The notes beneath the pieces are model-generated. The model was not told the origin of the DNA, did not search any database, and worked only from the letters and a program-made list of their open reading frames with translations. This document shows positions 1 to 56,978 of a DNA stretch of 64,000 nucleotides, in pieces. The DNA is from Candidatus Didemnitutus mandela (GTDB lineage: Bacteria > Verrucomicrobiota > Verrucomicrobiia > Opitutales > Opitutaceae): positions 44,265 through 108,264 of the forward strand of contig NJAL01000001.1 of assembly GCA_002591725.1 (NCBI GenBank). Direction: 5' to 3'. The position numbers were made by a program, and so were the translations under genes. Positions within the stretch are counted from its first letter, which is position 1; the number at the start of each line of letters is the position of its first letter.

Positions 1-3000
1 TGGCATGTTTTGGTAGCTCACTTGTTGGAACGAGCGGCGGCGAATCCCCCGAAATGGTGCGGCAGTGTTCCGGGAGCAGGTGAGTTCGATCCGTTGTTTT
101 TCGAGATATCTCCACGCGAAGCAGAGCTTATGGATCCACGCCAGCGGCTCTTGTTGCAAGAGGCTTGGAACGCGCTTGAAGATGCGGCGTTGGGCGAGGA
201 CCATATTGCGCGCCAGACCGTTGGCATGTTTGTGGGGGCCGAGGAGGGCGACTATCCGCAGCAGGTCAAGGAGCGCACACTTACATCGAACCACGATGGG
301 ATTCTGGCGGCGCGGCTCGCTTATTTTCTAAATTTGAAAGGGCCGGTAATGGCATTGAACACGGCGTGTTCGTCGTCGCTTGTGGCCGTGCATCAGGCGT
401 GTCAAAGCCTGCGATCTGGGGAGTGCGATATGGCGTTGGCTGCGGGAGTGAATCTACTGTTCTCGCCGGCGCCTTATATTGCAATGGCGGAGGCTGGTAT
501 GCTGTCGCCAGAGGGGGTCTGCCGGACGTTTGACCGGCGAGCCGACGGCCTTGTTCCCGGTGAGGCGGTCTGCGTGGTTGTTCTTAAACGCCTGACACAG
601 GCGATTACAGATGGTGACTTGATCCGTGCAATAATCCGGGGAAGCGGGATCAATTATGATGGCCGTACCAATGGCATCACCGCGCCGAATGGTGTGGCGC
701 AGGCAGATCTAATTCGGGATGTGCTGAAGCGTCATGCGATTACTGCCGATCGTGTGCAACACATCGTTACACACGGCACGGGCACACGTCTTGGCGATCC
801 GATCGAGATCGATGCTTTGAACACTGCATTTCGCGCTGCCAGTCTGCCGCCCGCTAGTTGTGCGCTTACCTCGACCAAGCCGAATTTCGGCCACACGTTT
901 GCCGCATCGGGCCTCGTGAGTTTTATCGCACTGGTGGAATCGCTGCACCATGGAGTTATCCCGGCGAGCTTGCATTGTACAGAGGAAAACGAATTTGTTG
1001 CGTGGGGTCAGGGACCGTTTTTCGTGAACAAAGCCGCCCGGCCGTGGCCGCGGCCGGGAGTCGGTGAGCGATTAGGGGCGGTGAGTGCGTTTGGCATGAG
1101 CGGCACAAATGCCCATGTCCTTGTTGAGGGATTTTCTGGAACATCTGAGGAACCTGATACCCAAAGAAGGCCTCGCTTATTTGTGCTCTCGGCAAAGACG
1201 GAACAGGCGCTTTGCGAACGTGCCCAAGCTTTGCGGAAGTGGCTCGAAAGTGACGCTTCTTCCAAGGTTTCCTTTGATCGCATCTGTTTTACATTGCTCG
1301 CGGGGCGGCATCATTTTCGTTATCGGCTGGCAATCGTTGCCCGTGATTCTGCCGAAGCGGCGCGGCTGCTGGCGGAAGCTTCATTTGCCGAGGAAGCGCG
1401 GGTGGCGCGCGGTTTGGTCTCCGATCAATTTACGCCCAACCCGGTGCGAGCAAGTGCTTTGACGGGGCTCGTCGTTCGCGCGGCGAACGGAGAAGGGTTG
1501 GACGAATTGGCGCAGATTTTTTGCGAAGGTTACACTTTCGATGCCGTGGCATTGTGGGGAGGCCGCGCGCTGGCTCGTGTTCCGCTTCCCACGTATCCAT
1601 TTTCGCGAAAAACATATTGGGCTCAACGGGTCGAGTACACTTCCAGTTGCCCTCCGAAGGTCCACCCACTTGTCCAGCGGCGGATCGCCGCCGATGGCGA
1701 AAGCGCACACTTCGAATCAGACTTCACCGGAAAGGAATTTTTCCTCGCCGACCATGTGGTGCACGGGCGCAAAACTCTACCGGGCGTGGCTTACTTGGAG
1801 ATGGTGCGTGCCGCGATGGTTGCTCGGGGAACGCTTTCCCCTTCGCAGCTGATTTTCCGGCAGGTTACCTGGTTGCGACCGCTTGAAGTTGACGATGCGG
1901 GGCGAACCGTGCGCATAACACTTACTCCCAATGGTGATGCGACTCGTTTTTCCGTAAGTTCTCGAGCCCAGGGTGTCGCAACCAAGCTTGTTCCCCACAG
2001 TGAAGGCTCAGTGGAGTTCGCAATCGGAAAGAAATCTGTTGAAGGACAAGTGTTTGCTGAGTTGCGCGAACGGATGCGCGGACTGTATTTCGATAGTTTT
2101 TCCTGTCGGGCTGCATTTACAAAAATGGGGCTCGACTATGGGCCTGCCTTTCAGTCGCTCACTTACGTCCGGCTTGGAAACGACGAACTACTTGCGCAAC
2201 TCGACTTGCCGGAAATTCGACGCGACACGCTTGGCAACTTCGAGCTGCATCCCGGATTGATGGACGGTGCGTTGCAGGCGGCTGTGGGTTTCCTCCTGCA
2301 AGCTGGAGCAGATTTGCTCACGAAAGTCTCTGCTCCGTTTGCTGTCGAGTCAGTGGTGATGTATCGAGGCTGTTCGGCGACAATGTGGGCGTGGCTGCGG
2401 AAAACGCCAGGATCCGGCACGGAGGCAGTTCGAAAGCTCGACGTTGATCTCTTCGACAGCGAAGGCAATCTTTGTGTGAGCTTGCGTCGTTTTTCGAGTC
2501 GCGTGCTTGAAAGTTCCACGGTGCAAGCGGCCTCGAGCTGCCAGCCCGAAACAAATCTCGATTACCTGCTTCCGTTTTGGGACTCACTGCTCGGTGTGAC
2601 CTCTGGACCGGCAATCCCTGGCGATGGTGACTGGGTGGAAATTGCCGGTGGAGATGTGATGCGATTCGAGGCGTTACGGAAGGTGTGGCCGCAAGCAAGG
2701 AGAATGGAAATTGACGCAGTCGATTCGGTGGAACGGCTGGCGGAAAGGCTCCGGGCCACTGGGCCGCTTGAACATCTCTGTTGGATCGCGCCTGCCGGCT
2801 CGTCGGTAGGTGGCGATTCCATGGTGGCTGCACAAAAGGGCGGGGTGCTCGCTTTCTTTCGATTGGTGAAGGCGCTTCTGGCGACTGGGGCTGAACGCCG
2901 GTCCATCACATTAACGATTCTACTTACAAATACGGTATCGGTCCACCCTGGTGATTCAAACGATCCGACTCATTCGGCTATCCACGGACTGATCGGTTCT

Positions 3001-6000
3001 CTGGCAAAGGAATACCCACAGTGGAAAATTCGTCTACTCGATCTTCCGGACGAATGTGTTTGGCCGGTGCGCGAGCTGGTTCGGTTGCCATTTGATGCGA
3101 CAGGCGATGCGCTGGCTTTCCGCCACGGCGAATGGTTCAAGCAATCGTTGTTGCCAGCGCGCTTCGGTGTTCTAGCGGAAGACGTTCCGTCGGTATTTCG
3201 TGAGAGGGGTGTTTATGTTTTGATCGGCGGAGCAGGCGGACTGGGTGGCGTGCTGACGCGATATCTGCTGGAGACATATCGGGCGCATGTTTATTGGGTT
3301 GGGCGCCGACCTGCTTCGGCTGAGATCGAAGAAAAAATTACCCATTTCTCAGGCTTTGGCCCCAGGCCGGTGTATCTGCAGGCCGATGCTGCCGATCATG
3401 CCTCGCTTGCGGCGGCGGTTGCAGCGATTCGCAAACGGCATGCGCATATACACGGCGTGGTACATTCAGCTTTAGTTTTGGCGGACAAGGGGCTGGCAAA
3501 TATGACCGAAGAGGCTTTTGCTGCTGCTCTCGCGGCCAAGGTCGATGTTAACGTGCTCCTGGCGAAGGTCTTTGCGAAGACAGGACTTGATTTTATTGTC
3601 AGTTTTTCGTCGATCACGGCTTTTCAGAAGGCGCCGGGCCAGAGCAACTATGCGGCTGGGTGCACCTTCAATGACGCATTTGCTGGCAGTTTGGCGCGCG
3701 CCGCGGGCTGTGTAGCTAAGGTGATTAACTGGTCTTATTGGGGCAGTGTGGGTGTGGTGAGCGATCGCGCCTATCGCGACCGCATGGAACGGGCGGGTAT
3801 CGGTTCGATCGAGCCGGCAGAAGGTATGCGCGCGTTGGAGACGCTCTTGCGCGCTCCAGTTCCACAGGCGGCTTTTCTAAAAACACTGGGAACGACGATG
3901 CGCGCCCAAACGGTTCAGGGACCGTCGATGGAAATTTATCCTTCTACGGCTCCGCAGTGTCTGGCAGATGCGGTGGCAAAAATTCCGCCGGCTTCGCAAC
4001 GGTCCGCAACTGTGGAGCTTCCTGAAATGTTGCGCGGAAGCCGGATGGATGCTCTGTTGTTGCAGCTGCTTCGCGGAACGCTTGCTGCACTAAATCTTTT
4101 CGATCGACCGGCTTCATCGCTTCCGAAACCTTACGACCGCTGGTTAGAGGAATCGTTGCGTTTGCTCGAAATCGCGAAGTTGAACGGGTCGGCCGTTGCG
4201 AGACCGGCTGACGCTGCTGTGGTTTGGGCGGAATGGGAACAGGAAAAAGCCGGCTGGTCGCTCGATGCGCATCACCGCGCGCTGATCGCGCTCGTAGAGA
4301 CGTGCGTCCGGGCGTTACCAGACATCCTTTCCGGCAGGATACCGGCCACAGATATCCTGTTTCCGGATTCTTCGATGGTACTTGTTGAGGAGGTGTATCG
4401 GGGCAACCGCGTGGCGGATCTTTTTAACGATCTGCTTGGCGATGCAATTCTCGCGTTTATCGAGGAACGGCTGATGCGCGACCCCGGAGCTCGACTTCGG
4501 ATTATAGAAGTGGGCGCGGGTACGGGTGGAACTTCGGCTGGACTGTTGGAACGCTTGCGGCCGTTCCGCGGCGCGATTGTGGAGTATTGCTATACCGACA
4601 TTTCGAAGGCATTTTTGCTGCATGCCCAGGAACAATATGTGCCGCAACATCCGTTCGTGACGCTCCGTCTTTTCGACGCTGAGAAGCCGACATCCACACA
4701 GCAAATCCCCACAGCTTGTTTCGATCTTGCTCTGGCGACTAACGTTTTACATGCGACGAAGAACATCCGACAGACACTGCGCAATGTGAAGGCGACCTTG
4801 CGACAGGGCGGCGGGCTTTTCTTGAACGAAATGCTGGTCAACCCGCTTTGCCTGCATCTTACATTCGGTTTGCTCGACGGCTGGTGGCGGTTTGAGGACG
4901 ATCCATTGCGACTGCCGGGAAGTCCGGGTATTGCTTCGGATACGTGGCGGCGCATCTTGGGCGAGGAGGGGTTTGCAGCGGTGGCGTTTCCCGCAGCGAC
5001 TGCACATCCGCTTGGTCAACAGATTATCGTGGCTGAAAGCGACGGCGTCGTTTGGCAGCAGCCTGCCATTGTATCTTCTGTGAACCTTACGGAAGCCGCA
5101 CCGGTTCCGGCGAAGCAGCCGGTCTCTGGTGTGATGGTACAAGAAGAGAACGTGCGGGCGATTGTGCGACGGTGTATTGCCGAGGCGTTGAAGATCGATC
5201 AGGCTGAAATCCGGGATGATCGTGCTTTTTCCGAGTACGGAGTCGATTCGATCATCGCCGTCCAATTGACAAACCGGCTAAATGCGCTTTGCGGCACCGC
5301 ACTACAGACGACAGTGCTCTTCGATTACACTACAATTGATCGGCTTACCAGACATCTAACGGAGACACATGGCGCTTTGTTTGCGGCGAAGTTGGGCGAC
5401 AGAAGCCCGGTTGCGTTGCACGAACCAGAGGAAGCCAACTCCCAACCGGTGACCGCCGCGTGCTCGGTTTCGACCCCGATTCTCCCGCCTGGCTTTTATC
5501 GCCGCGCATTGATCAGTGGGCCGGGCACCGTTTCCGACCTCAGTTTGGTTGATGAAAAATTACGCGCGCCGCGCGGATGCGAGGTGTTGGTGATGGCACG
5601 CGCCTTCTCCCTGAATTTCGCCGATCTGCTGTGTGTGAAGGGGCTTTATCCCAACATGCCGCCCTATCCATTTACGCCGGGCCTTGAACTGGCTGGTGTG
5701 GTCGAAGCTGTCGGTCCGGACGTCTCAACGGTGAAGGTGGGCGATGAGGTCGTGTGTCTTACGCCAGGTTGCCATAGGGAAATCCTGCTTTGTGAGGAAC
5801 GCGATATCTTGCCGAAGCCAGCAAAGCTTTCTTTCGAGGAAGCCTGTGCGTTGCCGGCTGTTGCGATCGCGATGATCGAGGCTTTCCGGAAGGCCGATTT
5901 GCAGCGCGGCGAAAGCATCGTCATCCAAACTGCCGCTGGTGGGACAGGGCTCATTGCCGTGCAACTGGCACAACACGCGGGCGCTGAGATAATTGCTACG

Positions 6001-6465
6001 GCTGGTTCTGCGGCGAAACTTGAGTACCTCCGAAAGTGGGGAGTATCGCACCTGATTAATTATTGCGAGCAGGACTTCGAACAGGAAGTTCGGAGGATTA
6101 CTGGCGGACGCGGAGTTGATGTGGTGATCAATACGTTGCCGGGCGACGCTCTGCAAAAGGGCCTGCGCTGCCTTGCGCCAGGTGGGCGCTATATCGAAAT
6201 TGCCATGACGGCGCTGAAATCCGCAAAAGCGGTGGACTTGTCCGTGCTGGCGGCCAATCAAACCTTTTATTCCCTCGATTTGGGTCGGTTGGGGATTGAA
6301 CAACCGAAGCGCCTGCAGGCGCTTCGGGCCGAAATGTTGTGCCTTTGCGGACAAGGTATCCTGCGCCCTACGATCAGCCAAGTTTTCCCATTTGCCGATT
6401 TGCACGAGGCTTATCGTGCGCTCGAAAACCGCGAAAACATTGGCAAGATCGTCGTCGTGGTTGCG
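1..6465 (+). other. PKS module KS1-DH-KR-cMT-ACP-ER
   Basis: KS1 has Cys123, His258 in a THGTGT motif and the K-N-GH motif, so it should elongate. DH has H-x3-G-x4-P (HVVHGRKTLP) and D-G-A-L-Q. KR has a GGAGGLG nucleotide-binding loop and the SFSS/Y pair. The methyltransferase has EVGAGTGGT and lies between KR and ACP, as C-methyltransferases do. The ACP attachment site is GVDSI. A medium-chain enoyl reductase follows the ACP, with AAGGTGLIAVQ as cofactor loop. Expected outcome: an alpha-methylated, fully reduced two-carbon unit. In a mandelalide-type product this would be C17/C18, with the C18 methyl and a reduced C19. Confidence 0.85.
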
Positions 6466-9400
6466 CCACGCCCACGCTCTTTTATGGAGCAGGCGTTCGC
6501 CAGTCCCGTCAGGAAACCCCAGTCATTGGTCGGAGCGGCGGAGGTCAACGACGGCACGTCGGACCAGATTGCGATCATCGGCATGAGCGGCCGTTTCGCC
6601 CACTCAGAGACGCTAGAGGATTTTTGGGCACATCTTGCTTGCGGAGACAACCTCGTGGGGAAAGCTACCCGTTGGGATCTTTCCCATTTGCCTTTTGGTT
6701 CGTGCGTTTACGGCAGCTTCATCGAGTCGATCAGCCGCTTTGATCCGCACTTCTTTTCGATTTCTGGCACCGAAGCGACCTACATGGATCCGCAACAGCG
6801 GTTGTTCCTGGAGGAATCCTGGAAGGCGCTTGAAGACGCTGGTTATGCTGGCGACGGTACATGTAGCAAACGCTGGGGTGTTTACGTTGGTTGCGACCGC
6901 GGCAACTACGCTGACTTGTTTACTGGTGTTCCCCCGCCCCAATCGTTTTGGGGTAACACTGGTGCGGTGATTCCGGCGCGTATAGCTTATTTTTTCAATC
7001 TGCAGGGCCCGGCGATTGCCGTCGACACCGCTTGTTCTAGTTCCCTCGTTGCGATCCATCTCGCCTGCCAGGGTTTGCGGGCAGGCGATGCGGATCTGGC
7101 GCTTGCTGGTGGCGTATTCCTCCAGGGGACGTCGACTTTCTACCTTGCGGCCAATAGCGCTGGCATGCTTTCGCCTACAGGGGCGTGTCATGCGTTTGAT
7201 GAACGGGCCGATGGTTTTGTCCCTGGCGAGGGTGTGGGTGCGATCGTGTTGAAACGCTTGCGAGACGCCGTGGCCGATGGTGACCAAATTTTTGGTGTGA
7301 TCCGCAGTAGTGGCGTCAATCAGGATGGCCAGACAAACGGCATCACTGCGCCTAGTGCGCAGTCCCAGGAACGCTTAGAGCGCCAGGTGTACGAACAAAG
7401 TCGAATCGATCCCGGAGAAATCGGTTTTGTGGAGGCGCATGGCACGGGCACGAAACTGGGAGATCCGATCGAGTTTACGGCGCTAACGAAAGCGTTTCGC
7501 CATTTCACTACGAAACGTAGTTTCTGTGCGCTCGGTTCGGTCAAAACTAACCTCGGTCACGCGGCTACTGCAGCGGGTGTTGCGGGTGTGTTGAAGGTTC
7601 TGCTCGCCTTGCGTCATCGGCAGATTCCTCCGTCGCTGCACTTCGATCAGGCAAACGCCGACATTGCGCTTGCCGACAGCCCGTTCTTCGTTAATACGAC
7701 GCTGCGTGAGTGGAAGGCGGAGGCCGGACGCCCCCGTCTTGCCGCGATCAGCTCTTTTGGCTTCAGTGGCACCAATGCGCATTTGGTGATCGCCGAGCCG
7801 CCCGTTGTTGCGCGGCGAAGCGAGCCGCGAGCGGTTCATCTAGTGGTACTTTCTGCGCAATCACCGGAACAGTTGCGGCGTCAGGTAGAGAATCTGCTTA
7901 GCCACCTACGTGCGCTTTCCGATCCCGATCTGGGAGCGATCGCGTTTACCTTGTTCGCCGGCCGCCGTCACCTTGGTTGGCGGCTTGCTGTAGTGGTGCA
8001 CGATACTTGCGAGCTTGCCCAGGCATTTGCGTGCTGGCTTGAAGCTGGTGCTAGCACCCGCGTGATAGCTTCACCACGCTCCGTGGCGGGTGTACGTGAG
8101 ACGACCTCACAGCGTGTTGCTGGGAATGCCCTTATCGAAACTTGTCGCGGCGGACTCAGATCGAAGGAGTTGATCGAGCGGCTGCTGGAGCTTGCTGGAA
8201 GGTTTGTTGCGGGCGAGCGCCTGGATTACGAACAGCTGTTTGCTCCGGGCACACCTCGTGTGTCGCTTCCGACGTATCCGTTTGCGCCCGAAACTTACTG
8301 GGTGGAAAAAACGGACTCGCACCTACTGCAGCGTAGAAGCACTGCGGTGGCGAAATTGCACCCACTGCTACACACTAACGTCTCCGACGTCCGTGGTGTG
8401 CGGTTTGAGTCGCGATTCGACGGGACAGAATTTTTTCTTTCAAACCACGTAATTCGCGGTCGGAAGGTACTCCCTGGCGTGGCCTCGCTAGAAATGGCGC
8501 ACGCTGCTGTCGTGCGTGCCTTGCCTTCGGCTGAGGCTGGCGCGCAATTGCGACTGGAGAATTGGGTGTGGTTGCAGCCGCTTATGGCCGGCGAACAGGG
8601 ATTGGTGGTGGAGGTCTTGGTGGCAAAAGATGCCGCTGGACACTGGGTGGTGGAAGTGGCCGAAACCGCGAAAGATGCCCGGATTTTGCACGCCCGGGGT
8701 AAGGTGACTTTCTTGGGAAATGCTGCGCCACCGCCCATCGATCTCGGCGCTCTTCAGGTGAGGTTGCGCGATGAGCTTTCCGTGCAGGAGTGCTACGAAC
8801 ACTTTCGTGCGATCGGCCAGGTCTATGGGGAAGCACACCGCTCGTTACGAAAAATCCAGCGGGGAACGGGCGAAGTGTTGGCTAAACTTGAATTGCCCAA
8901 ATCCCTCGTGGCGACGCGTGATGAATTTGACATGCACCCGAGCTTACTGGATGGCGCGCTGCAGGCGACGTGGGCCCTCGGCGGAATCACATCTGCAAGC
9001 CAGGTCTTTATGCCGTTTTCGATCGAGGCGGTGGAAGTCGTTTTTGGCGAAAGCCCGATCGAGTGGGCTTGGGTTCGAGAAGTTGAATCGATCCGAGGTG
9101 GGACGGTGCGTAAACTCGACATCAACCTATGCGACGGATCGGGTCGTGTAGGGGTGCGTTTGTGCGGCTTGGTTTCGCGCCCGCGCCCAGTGGCTGGGGA
9201 ATCGGAGTCGCAGAGGTTGGAAAAAACTGCGCCTGTGCGGATGATGACTTCGCTTTCAACTCACAATTACTGGTTAGACGAACACCGCGTTGATGGAGTA
9301 GCAACGTTGCCGGCGGTAGCTTATCTCGAAATGGCTCGAACGGCTGTCGTACGTGCTGGACAGACGGCTGGGGCAATCCGACAGGTGGTTTGGTCGGCTC

Positions 9401-45913: not shown

Positions 45914-46638
45914 GCGAGACGCCACCTGGAGTGAAGACGTGGGAACTACGGCTCGGCCGTGAAACGGCGAGTTTCACCGCGGCGCTCAGCTTGGTCGTGG
46001 GTTCGCTCGATGAATTGATGCCCTGGCGGGAACGCTATCTGGCTGCTGAGGAAAATCGACGTTGGGAAACGTTATTGGCTGAACGCCGGCGATTCAGTTT
46101 GCTGGCCGGCCGCATTACTGCAAAGTTAGCGTTGGCACGGCTCCGGCCGAATTTGGTTCCAGCGCAGGTTGAGATTGGCGAAGGTGTTTTTGGGCAGCCG
46201 GTGGTGGCGAAAGTGGCTGGCTTGCACGTTACCATTTCACACGCGGATGGTATTGGGGGGGCGATTGCATGTCCGGCGGAGCATCCGATTGGGCTCGATT
46301 TAGAGACGGTGCGCCCCGAGCTCGACCGGGCGATTACGACGGGGCTTACTCCGGCGGAGCACAAGCTACATCGCTCGCTGCCTTTGACGGCTTCTGTTGG
46401 TTATGCAGCTCTGTGGACGATTAAGGAGAGCCTTGCGAAAATTCTGATGTGTGGGTTGACGACGCCTCTGCAGGTGCTGGAGGTTGCAACAATTGACCTG
46501 AGTCACCTCGTGCTGGTGTCGACATTTTCCAATTTTGCTCAATACAAGGCACTCACCCTCAGGCGAGGGAGGTTCGTCCTGTCGATCGCGTTGCCCAAGC
46601 GCACGGAGGTCGATCTGGATTTTCTCCGGTCAAATTGA
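45910..46638 (+). CDS. Sfp-type 4'-phosphopantetheinyl transferase
   Basis: This 242-residue protein moves phosphopantetheine from CoA to the serine of carrier proteins, converting the pathway ACPs to holo form. It shows the two Sfp signatures: GLDLETV (Asp130, Glu132; magnesium and CoA binding) and WTIKES (Trp169, Lys172, Glu173). The start is GTG at 45910, overlapping the preceding stop (GTGA), so it is coupled to the AT-like gene and the PKS. Its end overlaps the convergent glycosyltransferase by 9 bases. A dedicated PPTase inside the cluster makes the pathway self-contained. Confidence 0.93.
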   Translation: MSETPPGVKTWELRLGRETASFTAALSLVVGSLDELMPWRERYLAAEENRRWETLLAERRRFSLLAGRITAKLALARLRPNLVPAQVEIGEGVFGQPVVAKVAGLHVTISHADGIGGAIACPAEHPIGLDLETVRPELDRAITTGLTPAEHKLHRSLPLTASVGYAALWTIKESLAKILMCGLTTPLQVLEVATIDLSHLVLVSTFSNFAQYKALTLRRGRFVLSIALPKRTEVDLDFLRSN

Positions 46639-47964: not shown

Positions 47965-47971
47965 GATGAGG

Positions 47972-48919
47972 TCACGCCGTCTTTTCCAGGTAAAAAGCTG
48001 CCTGGTCTCCGCGTCCGAGGCGATTGAGTTTTTTGGCCTTTTTGGCGTAAGCGTGTAGGGTTTTAAGTGGGAAGTGTTTGAAAAACGTACGCGAGCCGCG
48101 TACCTGCTGAAGCGGGGTGTCGGTGCGGTAAAGCTCGCTGCTCCAAAATTGAAACGAGTTGGAATCGTAGACAATCTCCCGGATGGTAAAACCTGCGGTA
48201 GCCGCGAGCCGTCGAATACTTTCGGGTGTGTGCAGGAAAAAATGTCGCGGTGCGTCTAGTTGTCCCCAATCGACTCCGTAATCCTGCCAGGCTTGGGACG
48301 AAACAAGCGGAATGCGGATCAGACAGGTGCCGCTAGGTGTGAGCCGGGCATAAATATCGTGCAAAGTCTTGAGCGGAGCGGCGAGATGCTCGAAGACGTG
48401 GTGGAGCATAATGAGGTCCCATTTTCCGGCGAGATCGCATAGCTCGGCCTTGTGAATTTTTAGTCCACCTGGGTAACTAAGATCGTCGGCGTTGAACGGA
48501 TCGGCTCCCTCCAAATGGGTGAAGCCGAGGCGTTGCAAACTTTTTAAAAGGGCGCCGCGGCCGCATCCGAGATCGAGGATGCGCGTTTCGGGCGCAAGTT
48601 GTATTTGGCTCAAGCTGCTGAGGGCAGGGTTAGCTAGGATACTGTTGATCCAGCGGTCCAGCCAGCCACGTCCGGTGAATGCGTAGCGGTCGCGCCGGCG
48701 GAGAAGAAAGTGGACTACTGCCGGGAAGGTGTCTTCGTCCTGCTGCGCGTAGTATTCCGGCGGATAATGGCGCGCCATGTCGTCGGGAAAGTCGGCGATT
48801 TGAAGGCAGCCGCATTTCTGGCACTCCAGATAGAGGAAGGATTCACGGGTACCGAACATCATTTCCCGAGCTTGGTGGCGCCGCAGCTCTTTATTGTTGC
48901 CACAGATTCTACAGTTCAC
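47972..48919 (-). CDS. SAM-dependent methyltransferase with N-terminal zinc-binding cysteines
   Basis: This 315-residue class I methyltransferase carries motif I ILDLGCGRGALL at residues 114-125 and a LIMLHHVFEHL segment typical of the Methyltransf_23 group. Cys3/Cys6 and Cys33/Cys36 form a likely structural zinc site, common in this subfamily. It starts an operon with the glycosyltransferase (7-base gap), so it most likely O-methylates the sugar or the glycosylated macrolide; mandelalide A carries a 2-O-methyl deoxysugar. Methylation at another position cannot be excluded. Confidence 0.85.
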   Translation of the reverse strand: MNCRICGNNKELRRHQAREMMFGTRESFLYLECQKCGCLQIADFPDDMARHYPPEYYAQQDEDTFPAVVHFLLRRRDRYAFTGRGWLDRWINSILANPALSSLSQIQLAPETRILDLGCGRGALLKSLQRLGFTHLEGADPFNADDLSYPGGLKIHKAELCDLAGKWDLIMLHHVFEHLAAPLKTLHDIYARLTPSGTCLIRIPLVSSQAWQDYGVDWGQLDAPRHFFLHTPESIRRLAATAGFTIREIVYDSNSFQFWSSELYRTDTPLQQVRGSRTFFKHFPLKTLHAYAKKAKKLNRLGRGDQAAFYLEKTA

Positions 48920-48956: not shown

Positions 48957-49232
48957 ATGAATAAAGACGAGATATTTCAAATTATAAAAGCTCAGCTGCT
49001 TGCTATTTTGCCCGATTGTGATCCGCAACAGGTGGTTCCTGCTGCGAATATGCGGGAATTGGGCGCTAATTCCGTAGACCGCGCTGATGTTGTAATCCAG
49101 TCGCTCGAAGCGCTGCGCCTGAAGATTCCTCTTCATGAGACTGCCGGTTTAAAGAATTTGCAGGAACTCGTGGATTTGCTGCACGCGCGGCTGGTGGCCC
49201 GCGGGGCGCTGAGCGGGAACCTACGGCCATGA
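48957..49232 (+). CDS. free-standing acyl carrier protein of the beta-branch cassette
   Basis: This 91-residue ACP has its attachment serine in GANSVDRADVV, the sequence style of donor ACPs in HMG-synthase cassettes, which carry malonate that becomes acetyl-ACP. The ATG at 48957 gives a normal ACP N-terminus and has an AGAGG site upstream; an in-frame start 63 bases earlier would lie inside the divergent methyltransferase. Its stop overlaps the next start (ATGA). First gene of a six-gene operon. Confidence 0.92.
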   Translation: MNKDEIFQIIKAQLLAILPDCDPQQVVPAANMRELGANSVDRADVVIQSLEALRLKIPLHETAGLKNLQELVDLLHARLVARGALSGNLRP

Positions 49233-50470
49233 CGCACGAAGTCGTCGTCACGGGAATGGGAGTTGCGGCAGAGATTGGTGAGGGTTTGTCGGCTTTCGAG
49301 GCTGCCTTGCGGAGCGGAAAGAGTGGATTTTCGGCGGGCGATGGAATGGGAGCACCGGTCGTTTCCCGGCTGGCGATGGTCGATTTCGATGAGCGCTTGT
49401 TCCGGCTGACGCTGCCCGATGGATTGGTGCTGCGGGCAAAACGGGTCGCGCGACGATCTCCGCGGGTGTTGCAGATTGCACTCGTGATGGCTTTGGAAGC
49501 TTGGCAACATGCCGGATTGGTCGGGGCGAGCATGCCGCCAGAGAAAATCGATCTATTGGTTGCCGGTCACAATTTTGGGCAGGGGTTGCAGATACGCGTG
49601 GCCGAAAAATATGGGGTTAATCCCGAGTACGTGCTGGCGCGACACGCTTTGCAATTCATGGACACGGATTATCTCGGTGTGATTAGCGAGGTACTCGAGC
49701 TGCGTGGCGAGGGGTGTACGATTGGTGGCGCATCGGCGAGCGGGAACGTTGCGCTGCTGCAGGCGTGGCGCCAGATCGGGTCGGGCTTTAGTTCGCTAGC
49801 TTTGGTGGTTGGCCCGCCGGCGGAGCTTTCTGCGCTGGAAGTACACGCGTTCCGGAATCTCGGGGCGATGGGCGGGAGTCGCTTTGCGGCTACCCCGGAC
49901 CAGGCGTGCCGGCCTTTCGATATCGATCGTGAAGGATTCATTCTTGGCGAGGGTAGCGCGTGCCTTGTCCTCGAATCTGCGGAGAGTGCGCGACGGCGCG
50001 GCGCCAAGGTCTTCGGCCGTGTTGCGGGCGGCGCCCTTTGCCTTGATGGAAATCGGCTTGCCGATCCCTCGGTAGCCGGGGAAACTCGTACGATGCGGCA
50101 AGCCCTACAAACGGCTCACATGGCGCCTGAGGCGGTTGATTATGTGAACGCACATGCGACGAGTTCCTTGCTCGGCGACGAGGTTGAGGCGAAGGCGCTG
50201 TGGGAGGTTTTTGCGGATGCGATGCCCTGGATCAACGCGACAAAAGGGCTGACTGGTCACTGTCTTTTCAGTGCTTCGCTGGTTGAGGCAGTGGCGGTTC
50301 TGCTGCAGTTACGGGGTGGCTTTTTGCACCCCAATCGCAACCTTGCCCGTCCGTTGGACGAACGTTTACGGTTTGTGGGAGCCACAGCGTGTGAAACTGG
50401 CTGCGAGATCGCACTTAGTAACGCGTTTGGCTTTGGCGGAATCAACACGTCAATTATCTTTCAACGCTGA
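49229..50470 (+). CDS. KS-like malonyl-ACP decarboxylase (Cys-to-Ser)
   Basis: This 413-residue ketosynthase homologue has GGASASG where elongating KSs have TACSSS; Ser169 replaces the active-site Cys. The His regions are kept in modified form (HATSS and LTGH). Cassette KSs of this type decarboxylate malonyl-ACP to acetyl-ACP for the HMG-synthase step and cannot condense. Position after the donor ACP and before the HMG synthase is the standard order. The ATG overlaps the ACP stop. Confidence 0.93.
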   Translation: MTHEVVVTGMGVAAEIGEGLSAFEAALRSGKSGFSAGDGMGAPVVSRLAMVDFDERLFRLTLPDGLVLRAKRVARRSPRVLQIALVMALEAWQHAGLVGASMPPEKIDLLVAGHNFGQGLQIRVAEKYGVNPEYVLARHALQFMDTDYLGVISEVLELRGEGCTIGGASASGNVALLQAWRQIGSGFSSLALVVGPPAELSALEVHAFRNLGAMGGSRFAATPDQACRPFDIDREGFILGEGSACLVLESAESARRRGAKVFGRVAGGALCLDGNRLADPSVAGETRTMRQALQTAHMAPEAVDYVNAHATSSLLGDEVEAKALWEVFADAMPWINATKGLTGHCLFSASLVEAVAVLLQLRGGFLHPNRNLARPLDERLRFVGATACETGCEIALSNAFGFGGINTSIIFQR

Positions 50471-50480
50471 GACGACGCAT

Positions 50481-50487
50481 GAGGAGG
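50481..50487 (+). promoter_or_regulatory. Ribosome binding site of the HMG synthase
   Basis: GAGGAGG lies 8 bases before the ATG at 50496. It supports that start over in-frame alternatives further upstream inside the KS-like gene, and it is the strongest Shine-Dalgarno in the cassette. Confidence 0.8.
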
Positions 50488-50495
50488 AAAGAAAA

Positions 50496-51755
50496 ATGAT
50501 TACGGTAGGAATCGAAGCGATGCACGCCTATTGCGGCGCAGCTTATGTCGACGTGATGAAGCTTGCGGTCCATCGCGGGCTCGATCGCTCGCGCCTCGAG
50601 AATCTTCTCATGAAGGAAAAGGCGATCGCGATGCCATATGAGGATCCGATCAGCTTTGGCGTTAACGCGGCTAAACCGATCATCGATGCCCTGAGCGACA
50701 ACGAAAAATCACGAATCGAGCTGGTGATCTCCTGCACGGAATCGTCCTTCGATTTTGGTAAGTCGATGAGCACTTATTTTCATTATCATTTGGGGCTGAA
50801 TCGGAATTGCCGGCTCTTCGAGTTAAAGAATGCATGCTATTCTGGTGCGGCTGGCTTGCAGATGGCGATGTCGTTTGTGCTCTCACAAGCGTCGCCGGGA
50901 GCGAAGGCTCTCGTGATCGCGGCCGATATCTCGCGTTTTTACGCCACGGAGGGCGGACGGGGGTTGACGGAGGACTGGTCGTTTGCCGAGCCGACTGGCG
51001 GGGCCGGGGCGGTTGCGATGCTGGTGAGCGAGGTGCCATTTGTTTTCCAAGCTGATGTGGGTGCGAACGGCTATTACGGTTTCGAAGTCATGGATACCTG
51101 CCGACCTGTTCCGGATAGCGAGTCTGGCGATTCCGATCTTTCGCTGTTGTCGTATCTCGACTGCTGTGAGAATGCTTATCGCGAGTATGAGAAGCGGGTC
51201 ACAGGTGTTGACTACCGAACGGCGTTTGGCTACCTTGCCTTTCACACCCCATTTGGTGGCATGATCAAGGGGGCGCATCGGAACATGATGAGGAAAATGG
51301 CGAAAGCCGATCCAGCCAAGATTGAGGAAGATTTCGAACGACGCGTGATGCCAGGTCTCGGTTATTGCCGGCGGGTGGGCAACGTCATGGGAGCAACAAC
51401 GGCGCTTTCGCTTTTGAGCACGATCGAGCATGGGAACTTCGCTACGCCGCAACGGCTCGGCATTTTTTCCTATGGGTCGGGTTGCTGTTCGGAATTTTTC
51501 AGCGGAGTTGTAACAAGTGGAGGGCAGGGCGCGGTGCGACGGAAAAGCCTGGCGACGCAGTTGGATCAGCGCGTCGAGTTACCGATGGGGGACTACGATA
51601 ATCTGCTGCGCGGGATCGGTGCGGTACGTTTTGGCACTCGCAATTTTGAATGCGATCCGGCGATTTTGCCCCAGGTTCGGACGTCCTGCTCCGGGCGGGG
51701 CCGGTTGCTGTTGAAAGCGATCAAGGAGTTTCACCGCGAATACGAGTGGGTGTGA
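50496..51755 (+). CDS. HMG-CoA-synthase-like beta-branching enzyme
   Basis: This 419-residue protein condenses acetyl from the donor ACP onto the beta-ketone of the ACP-bound polyketide. It shows the nucleophile Cys114 in NACYSGAAGLQ and the later FHTPFGGMIKGAHR histidine region of the family. The start MITVGIEAMH is the typical HMGS N-terminus and is backed by a strong ribosome binding site. The only ACP in the two PKSs with the beta-branch Trp is at 24.5 kb, so that is its likely substrate. The end overlaps the first hydratase. Confidence 0.95.
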   Translation: MITVGIEAMHAYCGAAYVDVMKLAVHRGLDRSRLENLLMKEKAIAMPYEDPISFGVNAAKPIIDALSDNEKSRIELVISCTESSFDFGKSMSTYFHYHLGLNRNCRLFELKNACYSGAAGLQMAMSFVLSQASPGAKALVIAADISRFYATEGGRGLTEDWSFAEPTGGAGAVAMLVSEVPFVFQADVGANGYYGFEVMDTCRPVPDSESGDSDLSLLSYLDCCENAYREYEKRVTGVDYRTAFGYLAFHTPFGGMIKGAHRNMMRKMAKADPAKIEEDFERRVMPGLGYCRRVGNVMGATTALSLLSTIEHGNFATPQRLGIFSYGSGCCSEFFSGVVTSGGQGAVRRKSLATQLDQRVELPMGDYDNLLRGIGAVRFGTRNFECDPAILPQVRTSCSGRGRLLLKAIKEFHREYEWV

Positions 51756-52525
51756 TAGACACAATCTACCAAACGATCCAGGTGCGCCTCACGGGCCCGG
51801 TTTTTACGCTCCGGTTTGCCCGCCCGGAAGCGGGCAATACAATCAACGCCCGCCTGATCGAGGAATGTCACCAGGCGCTCTCTTCGATCGATGAAACTGT
51901 GCAGGTCGTCGTGGTCGAAGGATCGCCGACGGTGTTTTGTCTGGGCGCGGACTTTAAGGAAGTAAGCGTGGGCGTTCCGGGAGCATCGGCGCCGGGTGCG
52001 GTAGCGGAACCGATGTATGAATTATGGTCCCGCTTGGCGAACGGACCGTGGATTACGGTCGCCCATGTGCGCGGCAAGGCAAACGCGGGTGGCGTCGGTT
52101 TTGTGGCGGCGTGCGACATCGTGATTGCGGATCGGACGGCCGACTTTAGTCTTTCGGAAATGCTGTTCGGTTTGTTTCCTGCCTGCGTGCTGCCATTTCT
52201 CATCCGGCGCATTGGACGACAGCGCGCCCATTATCTCACTCTATCCACGCAGCCGTTGAACGCCGAGCAGGCGCTGGCGTGGGGGTTAGTAGACGTTTGT
52301 GACACCGACAGCGATGTGTTGCTGCGGCGCCAGCTGGGGCGGCTGCGCTGTATCTCGCGGCTGGCGGTGCAACGTTACCGGCAGTATATGGAGACGTTTG
52401 ACGATCAGGTTATTCGGGCGAAACGCGCGGCGCTTGCAGCCAATCGCGCCATTTTTACAGATAAGGAAAATTTGGAGAAAATCGCCCGTTACGTGAATAC
52501 CGGTAAGTTTCCCTGGGAGCCATGA
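51752..52525 (+). CDS. enoyl-CoA hydratase homologue ECH1 (dehydratase)
   Basis: This crotonase-fold protein of about 257 residues is the first of two in tandem. It has FCLGADF, the ECH1-type oxyanion region, and a GKANAGGVGFVAA segment that forms the second half of the oxyanion hole. ECH1 enzymes dehydrate HMG-ACP to a glutaconyl intermediate. I use the GTG at 51752, overlapping the HMGS stop; a GTG six bases earlier is equally possible. It overlaps ECH2 by ATGA. Confidence 0.9.
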   Translation: MIDTIYQTIQVRLTGPVFTLRFARPEAGNTINARLIEECHQALSSIDETVQVVVVEGSPTVFCLGADFKEVSVGVPGASAPGAVAEPMYELWSRLANGPWITVAHVRGKANAGGVGFVAACDIVIADRTADFSLSEMLFGLFPACVLPFLIRRIGRQRAHYLTLSTQPLNAEQALAWGLVDVCDTDSDVLLRRQLGRLRCISRLAVQRYRQYMETFDDQVIRAKRAALAANRAIFTDKENLEKIARYVNTGKFPWEP

Positions 52526-53280
52526 GCATTTCTGGTGAAAGTTTGGTCGATCTAACGGAGGTTGAGCCGGGCATTGTGCAGGTCTCAATGTGCGATCGCG
52601 AGCGTCGGAATACTTTTTCTCCGGGGTTGATGGAGGGGTTGGTTCGTTCGTTTGAAGCGGTGGCCGAACGTGCCGAGGCGAAGGTTGTGATCCTTACTGG
52701 CTATGATAATTATTTTTGTTCAGGCGGTACGCAGGAGGGGTTGCTTGCGCTCCACGAGGGGAAGGCGAAATTTACCGATGTTAATCTTTACGGGTTAGCG
52801 CTGGATTGTCGCGTGCCGGTGATCGCAGCGATGCAGGGTCATGGCATTGGTGGCGGATTTGTGATGGGGCTTTACGCGGATATTGTTCTGCTGAGCCGCG
52901 AAAACATTTATACGACAAATTTCATGAACTACGGTTTTACGCCGGGCATGGGGGCGACGTTTATTGTCCCGCAAAAGCTGGGGCTAGCTTTGGCGACGGA
53001 GATGCTTTTTACCGCGCGCAACTATCGCGGGGAAGAGTTAAAACAGCGTGGCGTGCCTTTCCTGGTGCTGCCGCGGGCGGAGGTGTTGTCGAAGGCGCTG
53101 GCTTTCGCCCGGCAGCTTGCGGAGAAGCCGTTGGGGGCGTTGCTCGAATTGAAAGGCCAGCTTGCGGCGCCATTGCGCGAGCGGCTTCCGGAGTGTATCG
53201 CCCAGGAGGTTGCGATGCATGAACGGACCTTTCACGATGCCGAGGTAAGAGCGCGAATCGAAGCGCGCTTCGGGAAATAA
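52522..53280 (+). CDS. enoyl-CoA hydratase homologue ECH2 (decarboxylase)
   Basis: This second crotonase-fold protein, 252 residues, has FCSGGTQEG and GHGIGGGFVMG, the two oxyanion segments of ECH2 decarboxylases. ECH2 decarboxylates the glutaconyl chain to leave a beta-methyl alkene. Gene order after ECH1 supports the role; the regiochemistry of the alkene cannot be read from sequence. It is 3 bases upstream of the enoyl reductase. Confidence 0.9.
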   Translation: MSISGESLVDLTEVEPGIVQVSMCDRERRNTFSPGLMEGLVRSFEAVAERAEAKVVILTGYDNYFCSGGTQEGLLALHEGKAKFTDVNLYGLALDCRVPVIAAMQGHGIGGGFVMGLYADIVLLSRENIYTTNFMNYGFTPGMGATFIVPQKLGLALATEMLFTARNYRGEELKQRGVPFLVLPRAEVLSKALAFARQLAEKPLGALLELKGQLAAPLRERLPECIAQEVAMHERTFHDAEVRARIEARFGK

Positions 53281-53283
53281 ACC

Positions 53284-54672
53284 ATGCTTGGCAAACCTCC
53301 GGCTTATTTTACGTCCGAGTTATTAGGCAGCGTTGATTTCAAGGCTGATTATGGGTTGCGCTATGCTTATTTGGCGGGAGCAATGTATCGCGGGATTGCG
53401 TCGACCGATCTTGTTGTGCGTCTGGGTCAGGTTGGAATGATGGGTTTTTTTGGTGCTGGCGGATGTTCTTTGGGCGAGGTCGAATTGGCAATTCGCGATG
53501 TGCAGGCGCGATTGAGTCGAGGCGAGGCTTATGGATTTAATCTTATTGCCAATTACCGGAGTCCAGAGAAGGAGATGGAGGTGGTGGTGCTGTATTTGCG
53601 TTTGGGCGTGAAGCGTATTGAGGCGTCGGCTTTCATGCAAGTTACTCCCGCCTTGGTGTGGTTTCGTGTCTCGGGTTTGCGGCGCGCACCGGAAGGTGGT
53701 GTAACTTGCGACCATCAGGTGGTGGCGAAGCTTTCGCGACCGGAGGTGGCGGAAGCTTTTATGAAGCCGGCGCCTGATACAATGGTTACGGATTTGCAGC
53801 GGGCCGGCCGGATCACGGCAGAGCAGGCGCAACTTGCAGCGATGGTTCCGATGAGCCATGACATTTGCGTGGAGGCTGATTCAGGCGGACACACGGATCG
53901 CGGCAACTCGACCGTGTTGTTTCCGGGAATTCAGAGCCTGCGGGCGCGGTTGCAGCTGCGATTGCGTGACCCAAAACGAATACGTGTGGGGCTTGCGGGG
54001 GGAATTGGAACGCCGGCTGCGGCTGCGGCTGCGTTTGTGATGGGTGCGGATTTTATCCTGACGGGATCGATCAACCAGTGTACGGTGGAAGCGGGGATGA
54101 GCGAGGCAGTAAAGGACTTACTCCAGGAAATCAACGTGCAGGACACGGCCTATGCGCCGGCGGGGGATATGTTTGAAACAGGCGCAAAGGTGCAGGTGCT
54201 GCGGCGCGGAGTGTTGTTCCCTGCGCGGGCAAACAAGCTATTCTCACTTTATCAGCAGTATAATGGCCTGGACGCGATTCCGGAGGCGATGCGCCGGCAG
54301 ATCGAGGAAAAGTATTTTGGCTGTTTCTTTTCCGAAGTCTGGCAGGAGATCAAAGTGTATTTGCAGAGCCGTGGTCTAGCGGAGGAAATCGATAAATCCG
54401 AGCGTAGCGAAAAGCACCGGATGGCTCAGGTCTTTCGCTGGTATTTCCGGCGTTCATTTCGGCTGGCGAAGGAAGGCGATCCGAAGAACCAAGTCGATTT
54501 TCAGGTGCATACGGGGCCGGCGCTTGGGGCGTTCAACCAGTGGGTTGCCGGTTCGGTGCTCGCTTCCTGGCGACAACGGCATGTAGACCAGATTGCGATC
54601 CGTTTGCTCGAAGAGACGGCGGTGCTATTTAACCGCCATTATACGCTGGTGAAGGGCGTTGGCGGTTTGTAG
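53284..54672 (+). CDS. PfaD-type trans-acting enoyl reductase
   Basis: This 462-residue FMN-dependent reductase is of the nitronate-monooxygenase/PfaD family that serves as free ER in trans-AT systems. The TIM-barrel motifs seen are MGFFGAGG near the N-terminus, VEADSGGHTDRG, and GLAGGIGTP followed by GADFILTGSINQ (FMN phosphate binding). It ends the cassette operon. Two modules already have in-cis ERs (5.5 and 24.9 kb), so this enzyme either acts on a module upstream of the window or backs up a cis ER. The 3' end overlaps the convergent patatin-like gene by 34 bases. Confidence 0.92.
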   Translation: MLGKPPAYFTSELLGSVDFKADYGLRYAYLAGAMYRGIASTDLVVRLGQVGMMGFFGAGGCSLGEVELAIRDVQARLSRGEAYGFNLIANYRSPEKEMEVVVLYLRLGVKRIEASAFMQVTPALVWFRVSGLRRAPEGGVTCDHQVVAKLSRPEVAEAFMKPAPDTMVTDLQRAGRITAEQAQLAAMVPMSHDICVEADSGGHTDRGNSTVLFPGIQSLRARLQLRLRDPKRIRVGLAGGIGTPAAAAAAFVMGADFILTGSINQCTVEAGMSEAVKDLLQEINVQDTAYAPAGDMFETGAKVQVLRRGVLFPARANKLFSLYQQYNGLDAIPEAMRRQIEEKYFGCFFSEVWQEIKVYLQSRGLAEEIDKSERSEKHRMAQVFRWYFRRSFRLAKEGDPKNQVDFQVHTGPALGAFNQWVAGSVLASWRQRHVDQIAIRLLEETAVLFNRHYTLVKGVGGL

Positions 54673-55685
54673 GCGGAAAGATAGTTGGCTGCGGCCTGAT
54701 AGCCGGCTTGGAAAAGTTTTTGGTAGCTCGCATCGCTTGGCTTGATACTGAAGTCGGTCTGCTGGACGCCGCAGTCACTTATCATGATTGTCCGCTTGCG
54801 GGTAGCGTCTGTTGATTGCACGGAGGAGTCGATTCCGAGCATCATCGCGGTAATAAGATTGGCGATGTAGGAGCGTCGGTTTGTGACGGGTTTGGCCCTC
54901 GCTGTGTCGACGGTGGTGTAATGGTAATGGTAAAAGCCCAGTGTTTCCCAGTTAATGCTGTGGTCGAAATACGGGTTTCCGGGGGCATATTTGTCGTGAT
55001 CGAATATCTCGAGTGGGTAGTTTTTTGTAAGGCCGCCGTCGCAGTAATAATCGCCTTGTCCGAGCTGTTTGCCGTCGAAGCGCATCGCTTCGGAAAAAAA
55101 CGGAATGGCCGTCGACATGCGGACGGCGTCGGCGAGTGCAACATCTGGTGTGGTGTCCGCTGAGAATATTTCGGTCGAGTGGCGGGTTATATTCGTGACG
55201 ACCACATGGATGTCGTGAAATCCGCAGTTGCGAAATTCGCGGAACGTGATCCGCGGATTACCGGTATGGGTGCCGATTACGTTTTGTATCCACTGGTAAA
55301 AGTAGCTGTTGGCGTAGAACCCGAGTCGGTCGCGGAAGCGTCGCAAGCATTGCATGCGGGCTCGGGTTTTTTCGAAGAGGATCCTTTTTTTGGGTTGGGG
55401 AATCTGGTCGTAGGTCTGGCGGATTTTGGAGAAGTCCAAATCATCCACGATGCTCCGGATTTGTTTGGCGGAAAGTTTGAGGCTGACGAGGCCGGACATT
55501 ACGGCGCCGGCCGAGGCTCCGGCTGTGCGTTGGATCTGACTGAGCAATCCCGCTTCCTCCAAAGCAAACACGGCTCCGGAGTAGAGTACGATCAGGACTC
55601 CACCGCCTTTAAACACGAGGTTCTTTTGTATAAATTTCGGGTTCACCAATTTTACTATGGGGCGTAATTTTGCGGCCCGATTCAT
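54639..55685 (-). CDS. patatin-like serine hydrolase
   Basis: This 348-residue protein has the patatin-like phospholipase signatures: FKGGGV (residues 25-30, oxyanion loop), nucleophile Ser58 in GASAG, and Asp216 in DGG for the catalytic dyad. No signal peptide is visible. It is convergent with the PfaD gene, overlapping its end by 34 bases, and divergent from the trans-AT gene. Patatin-like enzymes hydrolyse acyl esters, mostly lipids. A role in self-protection, acyl removal or precursor supply is possible but unsupported; it may be an ordinary lipase beside the cluster. Confidence 0.85.
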   Translation of the reverse strand: MNRAAKLRPIVKLVNPKFIQKNLVFKGGGVLIVLYSGAVFALEEAGLLSQIQRTAGASAGAVMSGLVSLKLSAKQIRSIVDDLDFSKIRQTYDQIPQPKKRILFEKTRARMQCLRRFRDRLGFYANSYFYQWIQNVIGTHTGNPRITFREFRNCGFHDIHVVVTNITRHSTEIFSADTTPDVALADAVRMSTAIPFFSEAMRFDGKQLGQGDYYCDGGLTKNYPLEIFDHDKYAPGNPYFDHSINWETLGFYHYHYTTVDTARAKPVTNRRSYIANLITAMMLGIDSSVQSTDATRKRTIMISDCGVQQTDFSIKPSDASYQKLFQAGYQAAANYLSAYKPPTPFTSV

Positions 55686-55817: not shown

Positions 55818-56978
55818 ATGAATCGCCTGACGGTTTCGGTTGTTGGGCAAAAATCCATCGATTTTCGCACGATGCAAAAGCTAGATAATCGGCTAATTCA
55901 GTCTCAGGTTGAACGCTGGAACGAACAATGGCCGGTTTCTACTCCGGTGAGGGTGAAGGGCCGGCCGGAGACCAAAGTCACGCGTACGCAAGCGATGATA
56001 TTGTTCGAACAGAGAGCTATCATCTATCTGGAGGGGCATTGCGGTTATTTCGATCTTGATGAGGTGACGCCGGCGGCGATGGCGAGCGAGGCTCCTTTTG
56101 TTGCGGTTAGACCAGCTGAGCCGCTAGAGGCCAACGCGTGTTGGATGTTTCCGGGACAGGGTTCGCAAAAGACGGGGATGGGAGGGCCATTGTTCGAAGT
56201 TTTCCCCGAACTTGTCCGTCGCGCGGAGGCAATTCTCGGTTACGATCTGAAGGAGCTTTGTTTGAATGCAGGGGACCCGCGCTTGGACCAGACGCAATTT
56301 ACCCAGCCGGCGCTTTACGTAGTCAACGCGCTTACCTTTCTTAGCGAAAAGAAAAACGGAGCGGTGACGCCCGGTTTTTTTGCTGGTCACAGTTTGGGAG
56401 AATACAGTGCTTTGTTTGCCGCTGGCGTGTTTGATTTCGAGACAGGGCTGCGCTTGGTCCAACGGCGAGGCGCTTTGATGGCAGAAGTGACGGGGGGCGG
56501 AATGGCTGCGATCGTTGGCTTGTCGTCGACACAGGTAAAACAGGTGTTGCGCGAACGCGGCCTGCAAAGCCTCGATCTGGCCAACCTCAATTCGCCGACC
56601 CAGATTGTCGTTTCGGGGCCAGCTGCCGATATCGAGCGCGCGCAGCCGATCTTTGAGGAAGCGGGCGCGCGGTTGGTGGTCCATTTGAAGGTGAGTGGCG
56701 CTTTTCATTCACGCTATATGAGGCCGGCTAGGGATACGTTTTTTACGTTTCTCGATTCCTTTACCTTCCAGGCGCCGCGGGTGCCTGTGATCTCAAATGT
56801 CGAGGCATGTCCTTATCCCCCATTTCGTTTAAAAGATATTCTTACTGAACAACTTACATCTCCTGTACGCTGGACCGAATCGGTGCAATACTTGCTTGAG
56901 CATGGCGTAAAAAATTTCACTGAACATGGTCCCGGGAACGTGCTGATGGGGCTTGTGCGCAAGATTCAAACCTCGTAG
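55818..56978 (+). CDS. trans-acting malonyl-CoA:ACP acyltransferase
   Basis: This 386-residue free AT has MFPGQGSQKTGMG, nucleophile Ser192 in GHSLGEYSAL and GAFHS with His297, all canonical for malonyl-specific trans-ATs. It should load malonate on every AT-less module. The AT fold begins near residue 105, so about 100 N-terminal residues are extra. A start at residue 19 (MQKLD, 55872) would shorten but not remove this. The extension has no motif I recognise. The gene stands alone, divergent from the patatin-like gene, and is the last intact pathway gene on this side. Confidence 0.94.
   Translation: MNRLTVSVVGQKSIDFRTMQKLDNRLIQSQVERWNEQWPVSTPVRVKGRPETKVTRTQAMILFEQRAIIYLEGHCGYFDLDEVTPAAMASEAPFVAVRPAEPLEANACWMFPGQGSQKTGMGGPLFEVFPELVRRAEAILGYDLKELCLNAGDPRLDQTQFTQPALYVVNALTFLSEKKNGAVTPGFFAGHSLGEYSALFAAGVFDFETGLRLVQRRGALMAEVTGGGMAAIVGLSSTQVKQVLRERGLQSLDLANLNSPTQIVVSGPAADIERAQPIFEEAGARLVVHLKVSGAFHSRYMRPARDTFFTFLDSFTFQAPRVPVISNVEACPYPPFRLKDILTEQLTSPVRWTESVQYLLEHGVKNFTEHGPGNVLMGLVRKIQTS

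Follow-up and report, generated by a model that had tools for sequence, protein, structure and literature searches.

We analyzed a 64,000-nucleotide stretch of DNA from 'Candidatus Didemnitutus mandela' (hereafter the window), which corresponds to positions 44265-108264 of contig C1, that is, to the 3′ part of this 108,264-bp contig. Encoded in the window are the final nine elongating modules of a trans-acyltransferase (trans-AT) polyketide synthase (PKS), together with its thioesterase and most of its accessory genes. A preliminary description of the window had read this assembly line as that of a mandelalide-type glycosylated macrolide, and it was found that the assignment can be taken beyond mere likeness to mandelalide: the contig is almost certainly the mnd contig itself, and the cluster the published mnd trans-AT PKS of 'Ca. 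D. mandela', the predicted maker of mandelalide. The cluster itself is not new, as its description was published in 2017.

The cluster was equated with mnd because both the assembly figures and the fingerprints of the pathway agree with those given for 'Ca. D. mandela' in the study of the mandelalide-bearing tunicate by Lopera et al. (2017, mSystems; PMC5698493). The assembly analyzed here comprises 2,171,216 bp in 10 contigs, one of which (C5) is 319,645 bp long; the text of PMC5698493 gives 2.17 Mbp, 10 contigs, and an N50 of 319.6 kbp for the assembly Ver_v2, and locates mnd on a contig of 108 kbp with a seven-fold read coverage, taken to mean several chromosomal copies. The fingerprints are the 14 + 3 ketosynthases (KSs), a ketoreductase (KR) in module 5 with a KSH triad, the acyl carrier protein (ACP) of module 10, and domains resembling pyran synthases (PS-like domains). 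The domain features that were compared with the text of PMC5698493 agree: three PKS genes, 14 elongating modules, the KSH KR5, the beta-branching ACP of module 10, PS-like domains, a monooxygenase domain, a beta-branching cassette built around an HMG-CoA-synthase-like enzyme (HMGS), a glycosyltransferase (GT), a methyltransferase (MT), an acyltransferase (AT), and a phosphopantetheinyl transferase are common to both, and no feature in that text separates the two clusters. Here, the PS-like domains belong to modules 7 and 13, not to modules 7 and 12.

The PKS is encoded by three stop-to-stop frames, MndA (C1:20918-40777), MndC (C1:41844-60983), and MndD (C1:60965-89176). The 3′ part of mndC lies at positions 1..16719 of the window (C1:44265-60983; open frame of 5572 aa) and mndD at 16719..44912 (open frame of 9397 aa), both on the plus strand. 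The preliminary description had assigned the carbons from C20 outward to PKS upstream of the window, and it was there (C1:20918-44264) that MndA and the start of MndC were found. The genome contains 21 KSs (PF00109), with 17 in the three PKS frames, 1 free-standing on C1, and 3 elsewhere. An alignment of the 17 KSs showed that the first catalytic His is replaced in three of them, by Gln in KS6, Asn in KS10, and Ala in KS17. Therefore, 14 modules are taken to elongate, which is the number in the published model (PMC5698493). The domain order, the catalytic residues, the three non-elongating KSs (KS0), the HMGS cassette, the GT, the MT, and the upstream genes on C1 were all observed directly.

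Upstream of the window, His replaces the catalytic Tyr in the KR of module 5, giving the KSH triad that PMC5698493 calls rare, and the dehydratase (DH) of the same module lacks the HxxxGxxxxP motif and would be inactive. MndA also contains a flavin monooxygenase (FMO)-type domain, situated after KS3 and before the aberrant KS4, which has an unusual insertion and for which the 15 nearest reference KSs were mixed in class; the KS after the monooxygenase domain was assigned in PMC5698493 to the amino-acid-accepting type.

All of the domains named in the preliminary description, and their order, were found in the window by profile searches and motif checks; its KS n is KS n+6 when counted over the whole contig. 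Its list of modules was accurate as far as it went, but the window opens inside KS7 and not at a gene start, and the terminal non-elongating KS17 was unlisted. The features that follow are all on the plus strand, and the chemistry given for each module, like the ring closure by the two PS-like domains and the thioesterase and the identity of the final product, is a prediction from domain content. Module 6 (1..6456; KS7, cut by the window start, then DH, KR, C-MT, ACP, and enoyl reductase, ER) would account for the C18 methyl and the saturated C19, as had been proposed. Module 7 (6562..11505; KS8, DH, a PS-like second DH at about 9262-9978, KR, ACP) would form the tetrahydrofuran (THF) by ether closure at C17. 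Module 8 (11659..15180; KS9, a KR without the B-type Asp and hence of A-type, ACP) would, together with a split DH, produce the Z olefin at C14=C15, and it is followed by the non-elongating KS10 at the end of MndC (15298..16497) and by the split DH and ACP at the start of MndD (16743..17834), which would complete the module-8 bimodule. Module 9 (17946..22157; KS11, DH, B-type KR, ACP) would introduce the E olefin at C12=C13. Module 10 (22308..25844) consists of KS12, an ACP with the Trp marker of beta-branching (GLDSVIGVEWVR), and an ER, and would set the C11 methyl. Modules 11 (25992..29306; KS13, KR, ACP) and 12 (29436..32978; KS14, KR, ACP) would leave hydroxyls at C9 and at the sugar-bearing C7, respectively. 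Module 13 (33126..37307; KS15, a PS-like domain without GxxYG at 34929-35762, KR, ACP) would form the tetrahydropyran (THP) by ether closure at C5, and module 14 (37446..41720; KS16, DH, B-type KR, ACP) would introduce the E olefin at C2=C3. The line ends with KS17, an ACP, and a thioesterase with the motif GYSLG (41880..44909), at the end of MndD, the last PKS protein. The domains on which the preliminary description had based the C2 and C12-C13 alkenes, the C7 and C9 hydroxyls, and the beta-methyl with reduction at C11 were thus all confirmed.

Mandelalide has E-2 and E-12 olefins and, in the carbon numbering used here, a THF ring at C17-C20. When a KR contains the Asp marker (B-type), dehydration leads to an E olefin, and when the marker is missing (A-type), a Z olefin results. 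The marker was found in modules 9 and 14 and was absent from module 8. Mandelalide A has a Z-14 olefin (PMC4626695). The predicted KR types fit the E geometry at C2 and C12 and the Z geometry at C14. For the C14-C15 alkene, KS9, the KS0 (KS10), and the split DH were present as the preliminary description had it, but the motifs of the split DH are incomplete: HxxxGxxxLP is kept, whereas GxxYG is missing and the second motif has lost its Gln/His, which makes its dehydratase activity putative.

The two ring closures were evaluated by the same motifs. GxxYG was present in 220 of 302 single reference DHs, in 2 of 7 first domains of DH-DH pairs, and in 0 of 7 second domains. The module-13 domain lacks GxxYG and has HPSVMDVAFE (DxxxE) as its second motif, and two of its six nearest references were second domains of DH-DH pairs. 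The C5 ring closure that had been assigned to this module kept its place, with the correction that the DH-like domain is PS-like and not an ordinary DH. The olefin at C5 would therefore have to be formed by the DH of the following module, as PMC5698493 also has it. GxxYG is also missing from the second DH-like domain of module 7, the module of the proposed C17 ring closure, and here the order KS8-DH-PS-KR-ACP was found as expected, but the neighbors of this PS-like domain and of KS9 do not support a ring, as detailed below.

The substrate specificity of the KSs was assessed with a reference set of 567 KSs from 120 listed trans-AT PKS proteins (490 scored), each labeled by its preceding module, and the readout for each mnd KS was the class of its 15 nearest references compared to the class of its own upstream module. 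This is a neighbor method and not transATor, and because the profiles behind the labels were derived from the domains of mnd, the labels are biased toward mnd and overlook domains of an unusual kind. KS1, KS4, and KS6 have no testable class and were outside the test. The class of the upstream module was in the majority for 11 of the 14 testable KSs and for 8 of the 11 within the window, so that the comparison of KS clades proposed in the preliminary description came out mostly in its favor, with exceptions at KS7, KS9, and (by nominal label) KS16. The own-class neighbors among 15 were 13 for KS2, 15 for KS3, 14 for KS5, 12 for KS8 (MT-type), 8 for KS10, 15 for KS11, 14 for KS12, 9 for KS13, 15 for KS14 and 11 for KS15 (both KR-type), and 14 for KS17. 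For KS13, which follows module 10, the nine were of the ACP-ER type and a further four were of the enoyl-CoA hydratase (ECH) type. KS16 had 7 of 15 by nominal label, with the PS-like domain counted as a DH, plus 5 of the DH-DH type; in a FastTree phylogeny, five of the six labeled references in its clade follow DH-DH(PS) modules (support 0.995). Because this clade is of the DH-DH type, it agrees with THP closure in module 13. The KS substrate predictions in PMC5698493 are described there as almost completely congruent with its scheme.

Several observations count against the assignment or parts of it, among them the nominal result for KS16. KS7 had only 6 of 15 neighbors of its own class and 8 of 15 of the KR-type. 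KS9, which would accept the THF-containing chain, had no ring-type (PS-type) reference among its 15 neighbors, all of which were of the olefin type, and in the FastTree phylogeny 25 of 31 members of its clade were of the olefin type, giving no support for THF closure in module 7; all six nearest references of the module-7 PS-like domain were single DHs. The genome completeness computed here was 74.51%, compared to 94.2% in PMC5698493, and the text of that paper places the PS domains in modules 7 and 12 in one sentence and in module 13 in another, whereas the sequence has them in 7 and 13. The genes for the published MndP and MndQ were not identified; as for MndQ, a kinase, none was present among the flank proteins scanned or read, and no profile search was aimed at kinases. 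Finally, a free-standing donor ACP, which the HMGS cassette would need, was not found on C1 with a home-made ACP profile applied to frames of 30-2999 aa (best E 3.6).

A rival reading is a sister cluster in a near relative, making a related but different macrolide, for example one like madeirolide, and structural similarities between mandelalide A and the sponge compound madeirolide A have been described (PMC4626695). We consider this very improbable, as the assembly figures and the KSH residue of KR5 agree with the published assembly, and no close PKS relative was found for residues 1-5000 of MndD among the 120 matches listed (490 scored): the top match covered 47% of this piece at 47% identity, and identity among these listed matches was at most 56%. 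Identity with the published mnd cluster is the reading used in what follows, in which three features that bear on the published model are considered.

The oxygen at C20 is one such feature. Going by the mandelalide structure, C20 would be an alpha carbon, as module 5 would add C19-C20, and the PKS domains would give no oxygen there. The gene for MndB, a luciferase-like monooxygenase of the MupA family (C1:40681-41922; TIGR04020, 405.8 bits, cut-off 244.45), is located at the junction of MndA and MndC, and MndC starts with KS6, a KS0 with Gln for His, followed by an ACP. In the mupirocin bimodule MmpD/MupA/MmpA (PMC10952193), an upstream protein likewise ends in KR-ACP, a MupA-family monooxygenase acts in trans, and the next protein begins with KS0-ACP; MupA was found to work at the final ACP of that upstream protein and to require a beta carbon still in the keto form. 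The product and the host differ, and in mnd the module-5 KR has His for Tyr and the activity of MndB is predicted. By analogy, MndB and KS6-ACP look like a mupirocin-type alpha-hydroxylation bimodule. In this scheme, the chain bound to the final ACP of MndA would be hydroxylated at C20 by MndB before C21 has lost its keto group. Reduction of C21 by the unusual KR5 would follow, and the chain would pass to KS6-ACP of MndC, with the C20 oxygen closing the THF at C17. The words 'MndB' and 'luciferase' are absent from the main text of PMC5698493.

A different role for MndB, as a chain-shortening oxygenase, with the C20 oxygen coming from elsewhere, is put forward in PMC8739492, where CalD and MndB are assigned to chain shortening with citation of Lopera 2017, and this speaks against the bimodule. 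However, the Baeyer-Villiger candidate in the 2017 text is the monooxygenase domain within MndA (after KS3), two modules before the place of MndB, and the position of MndB at the MndA/MndC junction, before a KS0-ACP, is the layout of the mupirocin bimodule. Chain shortening by MndB therefore appears rather unlikely to us.

The sugar is the second such feature. In mandelalide A, the oxygen at C7 is glycosylated with a 2-O-methyl rhamnose (PMC4626695, PMC6930577). A locus on contig C4 (C4:45720-48569) was found to encode RmlA (448.9 bits, cut-off 360.65) and RmlB (483.2 bits, cut-off 365.1) in adjacent genes, together with a third sugar protein (C4:47697-48569) that scored 70.8 bits with the RmlD model, below the cut-off of 224.05. 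The best PDB match of this third protein was 4qqr, a 3,5-epimerase/4-reductase (131.6 bits), compared to 49.4 bits for the best RmlD. We take 4qqr to be a plant enzyme (nucleotide-rhamnose 3,5-epimerase/4-reductase); here the gene is bacterial and lies beside rmlA and rmlB, and the activity is predicted. RmlC was not found in the genome with TIGR01221, in an assembly that may be incomplete. These results suggest a dTDP-L-rhamnose route via a bifunctional epimerase-reductase without RmlC, and the C4 locus, with a plant-type 3,5-epimerase/4-reductase in place of RmlC, would supply activated L-rhamnose for mandelalide. The epimerase-reductase gene is common in relatives, being matched in 34 of 57 genomes, including its own (30 at E 1.6e-55 or better, 4 weak), and therefore it looks ancestral. 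PMC5698493 describes many decayed lipopolysaccharide (LPS) genes in the genome, and the word 'rhamnose' does not occur in its main text.

The third feature is MndR, a MenB homologue on another contig that was proposed in PMC5698493 to form the butyrolactone of mandelalides B-K. PF00378 matched four places in the genome, and the only one outside C1 is a crotonase at C7:223765-224520, which is likely to be the published MndR. It cleared two of three MenB equivalog models (469 bits, cut-off 380; 417.9 bits, cut-off 342.7) and missed the third, NF006186 (336.8 bits, cut-off 378). The genome also has menD (442.4 bits, cut-off 244.2), with a menF-like frame adjoining it (by eye), and menA (196.4 bits, cut-off 102.15); a search for overlapping ends of C5 (menD) and C7 (menB), which would unite them in a single men operon, gave a negative result. 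The published model, in which MndR is a dedicated butyrolactone-forming enzyme, and the shortfall with NF006186 would favor a specialized enzyme, but the sole crotonase outside the mnd contig passes two MenB cut-offs, and menD, menA, and the menF-like frame have been kept, which points to a housekeeping job. Therefore, the published role is weakened, as the candidate is the canonical MenB of a genome with menA and menD, and we regard a dedicated MndR as doubtful. The simplest reading is that the C7 crotonase has the housekeeping MenB role, with a second role possible.

Downstream of the PKS, the window encodes 11 of the 15 accessory proteins of PMC5698493, if the letters follow gene order; MndB lies outside, upstream on C1, and MndR is on another contig. 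On the plus strand are MndE (by gene order), acyltransferase-like (44849..45913; PF00698), for which the search of genome contigs returned no relative, and MndF, the phosphopantetheinyl transferase (45910..46638; PF01648). The GT/MT pair that had been matched to a methylated deoxysugar is present on the minus strand, as MndG, a macrolide-type GT (46630..48174; PF06722; TIGR01426 156.7 bits, below the cut-off of 260), and MndH, an MT (47972..48919; PF13489); the two frames share 203 bases, and translation of the GT probably begins further into the frame than the listed TTG. The HMGS cassette follows on the plus strand, with MndI, its free-standing KS (49229..50470; PF00109/PF02801), MndJ, the HMG-CoA-synthase-like enzyme (50271..51755; PF01154/PF08540), MndK, enoyl-CoA hydratase 1 (51650..52525; PF00378, NF005498), and MndL, enoyl-CoA hydratase 2 (52522..53280; PF00378, NF005496), all four named by order. 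MndM, a trans-acting PfaD-type ER (53284..54672; TIGR02814, 640.1 bits, cut-off 449.25), and MndO, a trans-acting malonyl acyltransferase (55818..56978; TIGR00128, 348.8 bits, cut-off 260.9), are also on the plus strand, and between them on the minus strand is MndN (by order), a patatin-like phospholipase (54639..55685; PF01734).

The HMGS of the cassette matched 33 loci in the genome-contig search, with at most 76% identity, and among 288 genomes sampled across the phylum, two, including its own, had a match at E 1e-60 or better. One Verrucomicrobiota genome (G121; 3.1 Mb) has an HMGS cassette with an HMGS 72% identical to that of mnd; no PKS was found with our own profiles within the 160 kb examined, and there were many matches elsewhere in that genome. 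On its contig C1, 77 places match mnd module 13, one of them inside an open frame of 24,434 aa, and these matches come partly in equal-score pairs, which suggests duplicated PKS regions. The plasmid collection gave only matches below 60% identity.

In the 'Ca. D. mandela' genome, a KS with an ACP at C6:10776-12281 was evaluated as a candidate second mnd locus and set aside, as it adjoins FAD-type oxidoreductase-like frames. The region C6:7778-12281 is a small separate operon with a free-standing KS (412 aa), an ACP (84 aa), and two such frames (by eye).

The palmerolide cluster of 'Ca. Synoicihabitans palmerolidicus' (PMC8739492) shares with mnd an ascidian bacterial symbiont as host, a trans-AT PKS in several copies, a luciferase-like monooxygenase, and an HMGS cassette, and differs in being a hybrid of PKS and nonribosomal peptide synthetase with another product.

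Both flanks of the cluster contain few long frames. In the right flank (window 57000-64000), the argininosuccinate synthase gene lies in two frames, 60144-60446 (by eye) and 60328-61371 (Pfam), followed by LytTR-regulator-like pieces at 61630-62416 (by eye) and a TonB-plug protein (62746-63999) cut by the contig end. In the left flank (C1:1-20900), the longest stop-to-stop frame over 20 kb is 329 aa, as would fit a genome undergoing erosion.

Taken together, the module-by-module reading of the raw sequence arrived at the right natural product, and what it adds to the published model is small and consists of modest inferences on the enzyme oxygenating C20, the source of the rhamnose donor, and whether the butyrolactone enzyme is only the housekeeping MenB. 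In a joint account, which in our estimation has an even chance of being correct, MndB and KS6-ACP would make the C20 oxygen, an ancestral envelope rhamnose operon, kept by a shrinking symbiont during LPS decay, would give the sugar, and MndR would be an ordinary MenB. If so, three gaps in the published mandelalide model would close with genes already in the genome. If MndR is an ordinary MenB, the butyrolactone of mandelalides B-K would come from another enzyme or from a moonlighting MenB, and the question of how the unusual ring of these compounds is closed would be reopened.

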